Origin: Terriglobia bacterium
Lineage (GTDB): Bacteria; Acidobacteriota; Terriglobia; JAIQFV01
Direction of reading: 5' to 3'
DNA length: 54,813 bases
Assembly (NCBI GenBank): GCA_028716525.1
Contig: JAQUPQ010000029.1
Coordinates: 1-54,813, forward strand
A program made the position numbers and the translations under genes. Positions 25,650 through 28,058 of this stretch are shown one piece after another. Position 1 is the stretch's first letter, and the number at the start of each line of letters is the position of its first letter. A model generated the notes under the pieces. It saw only the letters and a program-made list of their open reading frames with translations, had not been told where the DNA came from and did not search any database.

Positions 25650-25677
25650 TTGACATTTCGAAGAATTTCATTAGAAT
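25650..25677 (+). promoter_or_regulatory. Sigma70-type promoter of the pheA leader
   Basis: TTGACA at 25650-25655, 16 bases, TAGAAT at 25672-25677. The leader-peptide ATG follows about 30 bases after the -10, with GCGAGGG as ribosome site. Confidence 0.75.
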
Positions 25678-25707
25678 GCCGTTTTTCATTGTAGCGAGGG
25701 CGAACTC

Positions 25708-25776
25708 ATGACGTCTTCCATGCACCGCACTGGTTTTAGTTTTGCATTCCGGTTTTTTACCGGAGGTGCGGGCTAG
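25708..25776 (+). CDS. pheL: Phe-rich leader peptide of the pheA attenuator
   Basis: A 22-codon frame from ATG 25708 to TAG 25774-25776 contains five phenylalanine codons within nine residues (GFSFAFRFF). GCGAGGG lies seven bases upstream. It is directly followed by a 12-bp terminator hairpin and then by the gene for prephenate dehydratase, the enzyme committed to phenylalanine. This is the layout of the enterobacterial pheL leaders, where ribosome stalling at Phe codons signals charged tRNA-Phe shortage. The symbol is given by analogy; there need be no sequence homology. Confidence 0.85.
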   Translation: MTSSMHRTGFSFAFRFFTGGAG

Positions 25777-25833
25777 CCGCTTGTGTCGCAAGGTTCCAGC
25801 CCGCTCCGACAGCTCGGAGCGGGCTTTTTAATT
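25761..25833 (+). promoter_or_regulatory. Phe attenuator: alternative antiterminator and terminator helices
   Basis: Terminator: AGCCCGCTCCGA (25798-25809), loop CAGC, TCGGAGCGGGCT (25814-25825), then TTTTT. Antiterminator: CGGA (25761-25764) and GCGGGCT (25768-25774) pair with AGCCCGCTCCG (25798-25808), with a GGT bulge, so it uses the same bases as the terminator's 5' arm. The antiterminator's 5' part overlaps the leader stop codon. A ribosome stalled at the Phe codons leaves it free (read-through); one that reaches the stop codon covers it (termination). Confidence 0.85.
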
Positions 25834-25834
25834 T

Positions 25835-26752
25835 ATGGGCAAAAAACGAATTCTTCAAGAACGTGTTGTGGTGAATCGAGCCGCCGGGGCACGCCGCGCG
25901 GCGGCGAGCTCTCGAATTGCTTTTCAAGGAGAACGCGGCGCCTTCAGCGAGCAGGCCGTTCATCAGCTGCTGGGGGCGCGCTGGTCGCTGCTTCCGTGCA
26001 GGAGTTTTGAAGAGATGTTCGAGGCGGTGGTCCGGGGGCGTGCTTTGGCGTGCGTGGTTCCCATCGAAAACACCTTGGCAGGGTCTATTCATAAGAACTT
26101 CGACCTGCTTTTGCGTCATCAATTACAGATTCTTGCTGAAACCAATGTGCGCATTGAACATCATCTGATTGCCCTGCCGGAAACACGGCTGAACGACATT
26201 CGAGAGATCACCTCGCACCCGGCGGCCTTGGATCAATGCCAGGCATTTCTGCGCCGCCATCCGCGTTGGGAGGTGGTAACGGGCTATGACACCGCCGGCA
26301 GCGTGAAGTCGCTGGTTCAGCAACATCTCTCGAAGTCCGCTGCCATCGCCGGATCTCTGGCGGCACGATTTTACAAGTGCAAGATACTGCGGAAAAACAT
26401 CGAGGATCATCGCCAGAATTTCACGCGCTTCTGGCTGCTGTCGAAGAGCCCCCGCGAACAATTACCTATGACACTTCGAAAGGAGCTAGGGGGAACCAGA
26501 AATAAGACCTCGATTGTGTTTTCGACCAAGAGCATTCCAGGGGCCTTATTCAAATGCCTCAGTGTTTTTGCCCTGCGCGATATCAACCTCAGTAAAATCG
26601 AGTCGCGGCCATTGGTCGGCCGACCGTTTGAGTACCTGTTCTATGTCGACTTTTTGGGAAATATTGATGAAAAACGCTGCCAAAATGCGCTGCGGCATCT
26701 GGGCGAAATCACGGACTTCTTGCGCGTGTTGGGATGTTATCGGGAGGGATGA
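25835..26752 (+). CDS. pheA: Prephenate dehydratase with ACT domain
   Basis: A monofunctional prephenate dehydratase (up to 305 residues) that converts prephenate to phenylpyruvate, the step towards phenylalanine. The catalytic part starts at RIAFQGERGAFSEQA and shows VPIENTLAGSI and the NFTRFWLLS signature (Thr-Arg-Phe). The C-terminal ACT domain (TSIVFSTKSIPGALFKCL..) carries the ESRPL motif that binds phenylalanine for feedback inhibition. There is no chorismate mutase domain. The ATG at 25835 is close behind the terminator and has no clear ribosome site; the first 26 residues are basic and outside the family, so an inner GTG start is possible. Confidence 0.88.
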   Translation: MGKKRILQERVVVNRAAGARRAAASSRIAFQGERGAFSEQAVHQLLGARWSLLPCRSFEEMFEAVVRGRALACVVPIENTLAGSIHKNFDLLLRHQLQILAETNVRIEHHLIALPETRLNDIREITSHPAALDQCQAFLRRHPRWEVVTGYDTAGSVKSLVQQHLSKSAAIAGSLAARFYKCKILRKNIEDHRQNFTRFWLLSKSPREQLPMTLRKELGGTRNKTSIVFSTKSIPGALFKCLSVFALRDINLSKIESRPLVGRPFEYLFYVDFLGNIDEKRCQNALRHLGEITDFLRVLGCYREG

Positions 26753-26759
26753 GAAATGC

Positions 26760-27025
26760 AGAGGTCAGTTGTCAGCCGTCAGCTTTCAGCGAACAGCTAT
26801 AAGCTCCAAGCTGTAAGCAAACAGACAGGAGTGACTAGTGGCGAGTTGTTAGTGGCAAGCCTGGTGCTTACCACTCAACCACTGGTCACCGGCTACTAGC
26901 CACTCGTCGCCTTGAACATTGCGCGCCAACACCAGAGCCCAGTTATGATTGCTTAAAGCTTCGGGCTTGGGGCTTATGGCTTTTGGCTGACGGCTGATAG
27001 CTGATAGCTGACAGCAAAGAAAGTG
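26760..27025. repeat. Nested word-repeat hairpin (CAGCTGATAGCTGA type)
   Basis: Outer arms: GTCAGCCGTCAGCTTTCAGC..AAGCTCCAAGCTGTAAGC on the left against GCTTAAAGCTTCGGGCTTGG..GGCTGACGGCTGATAGCTGA on the right. Inner arms: GTGACTAGTGGCGAG..TTAGTGGC (26831-26856) against CCACTGGTCACCGGCTACTAGCC (26879-26911). It fills the whole gap between pheA and aroF and ends just before the aroF start. Confidence 0.65.
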
Positions 27026-27038
27026 AGAAACTCAAACC

Positions 27039-28058
27039 ATGATCATCAGCATGAAAGCGGGTGCGACGCAAGCACAAGTCGCGCACGTCATTGAAAAAAT
27101 CGAAAGTTATGGGTACCAAGCCCACCCCATTTACGGGCAGGAGCGCGTCGTCATCGGCGCTATTGGAAACGGGCAGATGAAGGATCACATTCAATCTCTG
27201 GAATCGGCGCCGGGTGTAGACTCCGTCATGCCGATTTTGAAGCCGTTCAAGTTGGTCGGCCGCGAACTTAAAAAAGAGAAAACTTTTGTTCGTGTCGGAG
27301 ACAACATTGAAGTTGGAAATTCGCACTTCATTGTCATGGCGGGACCGTGCTCCGTGGAATCGCGCGAGCAGTTGATGACGACGGCCGTGGCGGTAAAGGA
27401 AGCCGGTGCGCAGATTCTTCGCGGCGGGGCCTACAAACCCCGCACCTCACCGTATGACTTTCAAGGGCTGGAAGAGGAAGGGCTGAAACTGCTCGCCGAA
27501 GCCCGTGAAGCCACCGGCTTGAAAGTGGTCACCGAGGTCTTGTCCGACGGACAAGTTTCACTGGTGGCCGAATATGCCGATATCGTACAGGTCGGGGCCC
27601 GCAACATGCAGAATTTTGCGCTGCTCAAAAAACTCGGCAAATGTGGGCGTCCCATTCTGCTGAAGCGGGGCATGAGTTCCACGGTTCGTGAATTCCTGCT
27701 GTCGGCTGAGTATATTGTCTCCGAAGGCAATCCCCATGTCATTTTGTGTGAACGCGGAATTCGCACGTTCGAGACCTATACGCGCAACACGCTCGATCTT
27801 TCGGCCGTCCCATTACTCAACGAGCTTTCGCACCTTCCGGTGGTCGTGGATCCTTCCCACGGCACGGGCAAACGCTCCCTCATCAAGCCCATGGCCAAGG
27901 CGGCGGTGGCCGCAGGAGCCGACGGCCTGTTGATTGAAGTTCATCCCAACCCGGAAGAAGCGTTTTCTGACGGACCCCAGTCGCTCCAACCTGCGGAGTT
28001 TGCGGACCTCATGCAGGCCGTGCGACAATACGCAGCGATCGAGAACCGCCGGATGTGA
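27039..28058 (+). CDS. aroF: DAHP synthase with N-terminal regulatory domain
   Basis: The 339-residue product makes 3-deoxy-D-arabino-heptulosonate 7-phosphate, the first step of aromatic synthesis. Residues 1-85 form a ferredoxin-like (ACT-like) regulatory domain ([20 protein letters not shown]..), as in the Thermotoga-type enzymes, where it gives feedback inhibition. The catalytic barrel shows [61 protein letters not shown] and [13 protein letters not shown]. It follows pheA on the same strand and may lie under the same attenuator, although the repeat between them could break the transcript. Confidence 0.93.

Follow-up and report, generated by a model that had tools for sequence, protein, structure and literature searches.

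The closest described system to the locus analysed here is the pheL-pheA leader of E. coli K-12, which combines a short Phe-rich leader with a U-tract terminator just before pheA and an antiterminator that is blocked by a ribosome near the stop codon. Branched-chain (ilv) leader attenuators of the ilvB/ilvG type also exist in E. coli, and attenuators across bacteria have reportedly been surveyed by Lopatovskaya et al. in 2010. In the full text of the open literature, no account of Phe leader-peptide attenuation in Acidobacteria was found, and an earlier prediction in that 2010 survey is possible. Outside Proteobacteria, leader-peptide attenuators are known in Actinobacteria (PMC1262725) and as the His leaders of Firmicutes hisS (PMC2965389); both concern other amino acids and other phyla than the leader described below. 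Naville and Gautheret (2010) give leader peptides as then known only in Proteobacteria, Actinobacteria and, newly, Firmicutes, and report an assigned function for almost none of the attenuators predicted in Acidobacteria (PMC2965389).

The window, that is, the whole stretch of 54,813 nt of Terriglobia bacterium DNA that was analysed, shares with E. coli pheL-pheA the short Phe-rich leader, the U-tract terminator just before pheA, the antiterminator predicted to be blocked by a ribosome near the stop codon, and the modelled response to a ribosome mask. Compared to pheL, its leader is longer (22 versus 15 codons), the gap between stop codon and terminator is shorter (21 versus 46 nt), and the 1:2 protector hairpin, which is dominant in E. 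coli, is predicted to be weak. Judged from the sequence and from modelled folding, it is highly probable that a ribosome-mediated attenuator couples transcription of pheA, and perhaps also of the DAHP synthase gene that follows, to charged tRNA-Phe. This conclusion rests on anatomy, conservation, the match to operon content and a predicted folding switch; where transcription starts, that the leader is translated, the kinetics of folding during transcription and how the locus responds to Phe are the parts that we infer. The mechanism is of a known kind and is ordinary in itself. What look new, within the open literature, are its occurrence across Acidobacteriota and the way in which the choice of Phe or Val codons in the leader matches the operon. 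A Phe attenuation switch is apparently undescribed in this phylum, where candidates occur in at least nine families, and it would provide a concrete function for attenuators where the published survey had almost none (PMC2965389).

Anatomy of the leader region and its neighbouring genes

The features of the locus are as follows.

25650..25677, + strand: sigma70-like promoter, TTGACA-16-TAGAAT, with 11 of 12 consensus bases
25696..25699, + strand: Shine-Dalgarno-like GAGG, read directly, 8 nt 5′ of the leader ATG at 25708
25708..25776, + strand: leader ORF of 22 codons, translated as MTSSMHRTGFSFAFRFFTGGAG, from ATG at 25708 to TAG at 25774-25776
25735, 25741, 25747, 25753 and 25756, + strand: leader Phe codons 10, 12, 14, 16 and 17
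25744..25769, + strand: possible 1:2 hairpin across the last Phe codons, with the core TCCGGT...ACCGGA, from RNA folding
25761..25774, + strand: region 2, the 5′ strand of the antiterminator, CGGAGGTGCGGGCT, ending in the leader stop codon
25798..25809, + strand: region 3, shared by the antiterminator, as its 3′ strand, and the terminator, as its 5′ arm
25814..25833, + strand: region 4, the 3′ arm of the terminator (perfect 12-bp stem) and T-tract, with a T-rich tail
25835..26752, + strand: pheA, prephenate dehydratase (PDT and ACT), start codon uncertain; Pfam PF00800, E 2.6e-59, with a weak ACT match
27039..28058, + strand: DAHP synthase, perhaps the second operon gene; Pfam DAHP_synth_1, E 2e-81

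The initial annotation had placed a promoter, a leader, a terminator and an antiterminator in front of pheA, and all of them are found in the sequence. Its count of five Phe codons in nine can be tightened, as the translation holds all five in eight codons. The terminator (25798-25825) is, as had been described, a perfect 12-bp stem, with a 4-nt loop and a T-tract behind it that ends just before pheA, and it sits between the leader and that gene. The antiterminator pairs 25761-25774 with 25798-25808; its last paired base is the T of the TAG codon, so that the leader stop does lie inside the 5′ strand as proposed. The proposed register with CGGA is one of two near-equal registers, and folding prefers the other, in which GG.GCGGGCU pairs with AGCCCGC.CC. 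The duplex of regions 2 and 3 in the window leader has a dG of -20.6 (p = 0.019 against shuffles), and the 148-nt leader region as a whole folds better than its shuffles (z = -3.45). The window leader shows the marks of an amino-acid attenuator, namely a cluster of codons for the product amino acid, an intrinsic terminator and an exclusive antiterminator, together with a downstream gene, pheA, that makes the amino acid of the leader codons.

The upstream neighbours, a lysX-like gene and argC, are on the minus strand, and therefore the terminator before pheA closes no other operon. Downstream, the DAHP synthase gene follows pheA after a gap of 286 nt, and this gene order recurs in L003, L187 and L200. 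No Shine-Dalgarno sequence is present between the T-tract and the pheA ATG at 25835, and the sole GGAG near this start (25816-25819) is located inside the 3′ arm of the terminator, 15 nt from the ATG. Either pheA starts at a GTG at 25868 or 25871, or else the terminator also hides the ribosome site. The interval between pheA and the DAHP synthase gene contains, at 26755-27020, a large imperfect palindrome, CAGCCGTCAGCTTTCAGC ... GCTGACGGCTGATAGCTGATAGCTGACAGC, with a fold of -126 kcal/mol, which resembles a repeat or MITE-type element.

Predicted response of the leader to ribosome position

In the proposed mechanism, transcription would start near 25684 and a ribosome would then translate the leader. 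With plentiful Phe-tRNA, the ribosome at the TAG codon (25774) would cover region 2, region 3 would pair with region 4, and this pairing would stop transcription at 25826-25833. With Phe-tRNA in short supply, the ribosome would stall at the first Phe codons, leaving region 2 free to pair with the emerging region 3, and the polymerase would read through into pheA.

These states were modelled by ribosome-mask folding, in which the transcript is folded before region 4 exists and the A site is placed at a chosen codon. In the window, region 3 is predicted to pair with region 2 with a probability of 0.81-0.86 when the A site is at Phe codons 10-14, of 0.67 and 0.52 at Phe codons 16 and 17, respectively, and of 0.00 when the ribosome is at the stop. 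The leaders of L003, L004 and L031 show the same behaviour, and E. coli K-12 pheL, as a positive control, gives an antiterminator probability of 0.66 with the ribosome at codons 6-12, which falls to 0.00 at the stop. The earlier suggestion that stalling at Phe codons would favour read-through agrees with this folding model. For three distant leaders (G475, G600 and G562), a coarser pairing measure showed no separation between the stalled and the stop state. The window and E. coli diverge when no ribosome is present: the antiterminator probability is then about 0.8 (0.81) in the window and 0.01 in E. coli. The 1:2 hairpin is present in the window, yet RNA folding favours the antiterminator without a ribosome, and the protector is accordingly modelled as weaker than that of E. 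coli. Because the folding energies are close, the no-ribosome difference should be regarded as a prediction rather than a result.

At equilibrium, the full-length leader always forms the terminator, whether the ribosome is stalled or not. Like every attenuator of this type, the switch therefore depends on co-transcriptional kinetics. A terminator that is strong alone and wins at equilibrium could also be constitutive, or be regulated by a protein or ligand, as with a riboswitch, a T-box or an RNA-binding protein, with the small ORF being incidental. This is very unlikely, because no Rfam family matches the leader of the window or the leaders of 14 related loci, and no riboswitch, T-box or other Rfam match is found in the window, in its leader or in those 14 loci. 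Moreover, the antiterminator overlaps the 3′ end or stop of the leader, and the leader codons match what the operon encodes, with Phe before pheA and Val before pheA-ilv, as expanded on below.

Phe leaders within the order and across Acidobacteriota

The sample of the order consists of three genomes, each a species, including that of the window. The initial annotation had named the lack of a conserved leader frame or stems in related genomes as a refutation; the outcome favours its interpretation, since 3/3 species keep both stems and the Phe leader frame as well as the promoter. The leader peptides are MHRLSCPFIFFFNFSPAAWEVG in L003 (G002) and MRRLSCPDVFIFNFSPAAWEVG in L004 (G001), the promoters of both genomes have the form TTGACT...TA[GA]AAT, and their terminator is GGCCCGCCAGTCC...GGATTGGCGGGC. 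Between L003 and L004, no change falls in region 2 or in the arms of the terminator, and the hairpin varies in its loop only, while the peptide carries four non-synonymous codon changes and one synonymous change, with Phe 10, 12 and 14 kept. Variation of the peptide with unchanged stems argues for an RNA switch with a codon sensor and not for a working peptide. The leader could otherwise be a functional small protein, or serve translational coupling or reinitiation into pheA: Acidobacteria commonly have short leader genes near structural genes, for which one report mentions a proposal of reinitiation (PMC4833913), and the leader stop in the window is 58 nt before the pheA ATG. We give such roles a very small probability, since the changes between L003 and L004 fall on the peptide and spare the stems, a terminator stands between leader and gene, and in L003 and L004 over 150 nt separate the leader stop from the gene start.

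The feature is not confined to the genome of the window, and leaders that fit a Phe attenuator are also found beyond this order. A phylum survey of 222 compiled upstream regions of pheA revealed Phe leaders with terminators in 12 genomes of 9 families, namely G000, G001 and G002 (f1), G004 (f3), G414 and G616 (f22), G475 (f32), G600 (f81, also L112), G442 (f36), G419 (f27), G484 (f34) and G562 (f35), so that, beyond the order, nine further Acidobacteriota genomes of eight other families have a Phe leader before pheA. The leader of G616 has a broken U-tract and was found by eye. In G475, the leader precedes a chorismate mutase-like frame and then pheA (aroH-pheA), and in G419, G484 and G562 it precedes a fused chorismate mutase-prephenate dehydratase gene. 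The other Terriglobia examined have no Phe leader, and most Terriglobia surveyed are without this leader. The layout of the Phe leaders is regular, with 21-34 nt from stop to terminator. The antiterminator begins inside the 3′ end of the leader in 12/12 cases, and the end of region 2 falls, relative to the first base of the stop, in the range from 17 nt upstream to 2 nt downstream. Compared with shuffles, the antiterminator pairing gives a Fisher p of 4e-8 over the 12 leaders (single values of 0.002-0.21), a figure that treats all of them as independent although G001/G002 and G414/G616 are not.

The covariance model of the Phe_leader family RF01859, with a match defined as above its gathering score (55 bits), exceeds the cut-off in 0/12 acidobacterial genomes, and the leaders are absent from its weak matches; the cut-off is exceeded in 1/14 control genomes, presumably E. 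coli. The findings as a whole point to use of the textbook Phe attenuation switch outside Proteobacteria, without detectable sequence relation to that of E. coli.

Phe-rich short ORFs do occur elsewhere in the genome of the window. In a sample of 1.65 Mb (39% of the genome), 7 short ORFs have at least five Phe in nine codons and 119 have at least four, and strong terminators number 114 when both strands are counted. Among the Phe-rich ORFs of this sample, the leader of the window alone has a terminator at most 140 nt away, which makes chance a poor explanation; it also stands before the gene for Phe synthesis, and a homologous leader is present in both sister species. A detector that combines at least three Phe in nine codons with a terminator of -20 kcal/mol or better matches 13/222 forward upstream regions, 1/222 reverse complements and 1/400 genome background pieces. 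The Fisher p for forward versus reverse is 8e-4, or 0.005 after removal of a duplicate, a sister species and the Val case G534. Since eight other families have similar leaders, at a rate that far exceeds those of the reverse complements and the background, a chance coincidence of a Phe-rich frame and hairpins before pheA has almost no probability left. Two of the candidate leaders for other amino acids in the same genome, L164 and L246, were rejected as the ends of larger genes.

Val leaders and the history of the proposed switch

In G623, G534 and G618, the leader before pheA is rich in Val, as in MLLLSNAVVTNPDVLVGVVVVVTVVRPTG, and has its own terminator and antiterminator; the genes behind pheA are there ilvB- or ilvD-like, as judged by eye from their translations. 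A Val-rich ORF with a terminator is located farther upstream of pheA in G602. With a threshold of at least five Val, the detector finds 4 forward cases and 0 in both reverse complement and background; it finds nothing for A, W and L, and for Ser more on the reverse strand than on the forward strand. A Val leader where pheA heads an ilv operon means that the leader codons follow the operon product. The Val-rich leaders before pheA-ilv in f56 and f84 share their layout with the ilvB/ilvG-type leaders of E. coli, from which they differ in having pheA as the gene next to the leader; the leader of the window differs from the E. coli type in being Phe-rich. Because leader codons follow the operon product, Phe or Val, within one phylum, Acidobacteriota could offer a natural series for the origin, loss and retuning of such switches.

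When the presence of a Phe leader is mapped as a label on a tree of 58 prephenate dehydratases, it requires at least 6 changes, compared to a mean of 8.5 for shuffled labels, suggesting that the Phe leader is partly inherited and has been repeatedly gained or lost. A more far-reaching account, which we regard as tentative and rather doubtful, would have the pheA switch of Acidobacteriota as widespread, repeatedly gained and lost, with codons set by operon content, and of a reduced form without a strong protector, whose untranslated leader, unlike that of E. coli, reads through.

Some minor observations were made on other upstream regions. The conserved short ORF ..NWLYQW..DFFFRGLLG before pheA in f4 was rejected as a leader, as it looks by eye like the C-terminus of an upstream, TetR-like regulator; many leaderless f4 genomes have, immediately upstream of pheA, a gene whose product ends in DFFFRGLLG (L005, L006, L007, L008, L010 and others). 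The short Phe ORFs of L074 (KSB1) and L109 (Neomarinimicrobiota) were set aside, being without the leader layout. The Val leaders of L195 (G618), L199 (G623) and L205 (G534) are about 20-180 nt before pheA and have GGCCATCATCC-type terminators, and the GGCCATCATCC...GGATGATGGCC type is common to four genomes of two families, these three and L211 (G602).
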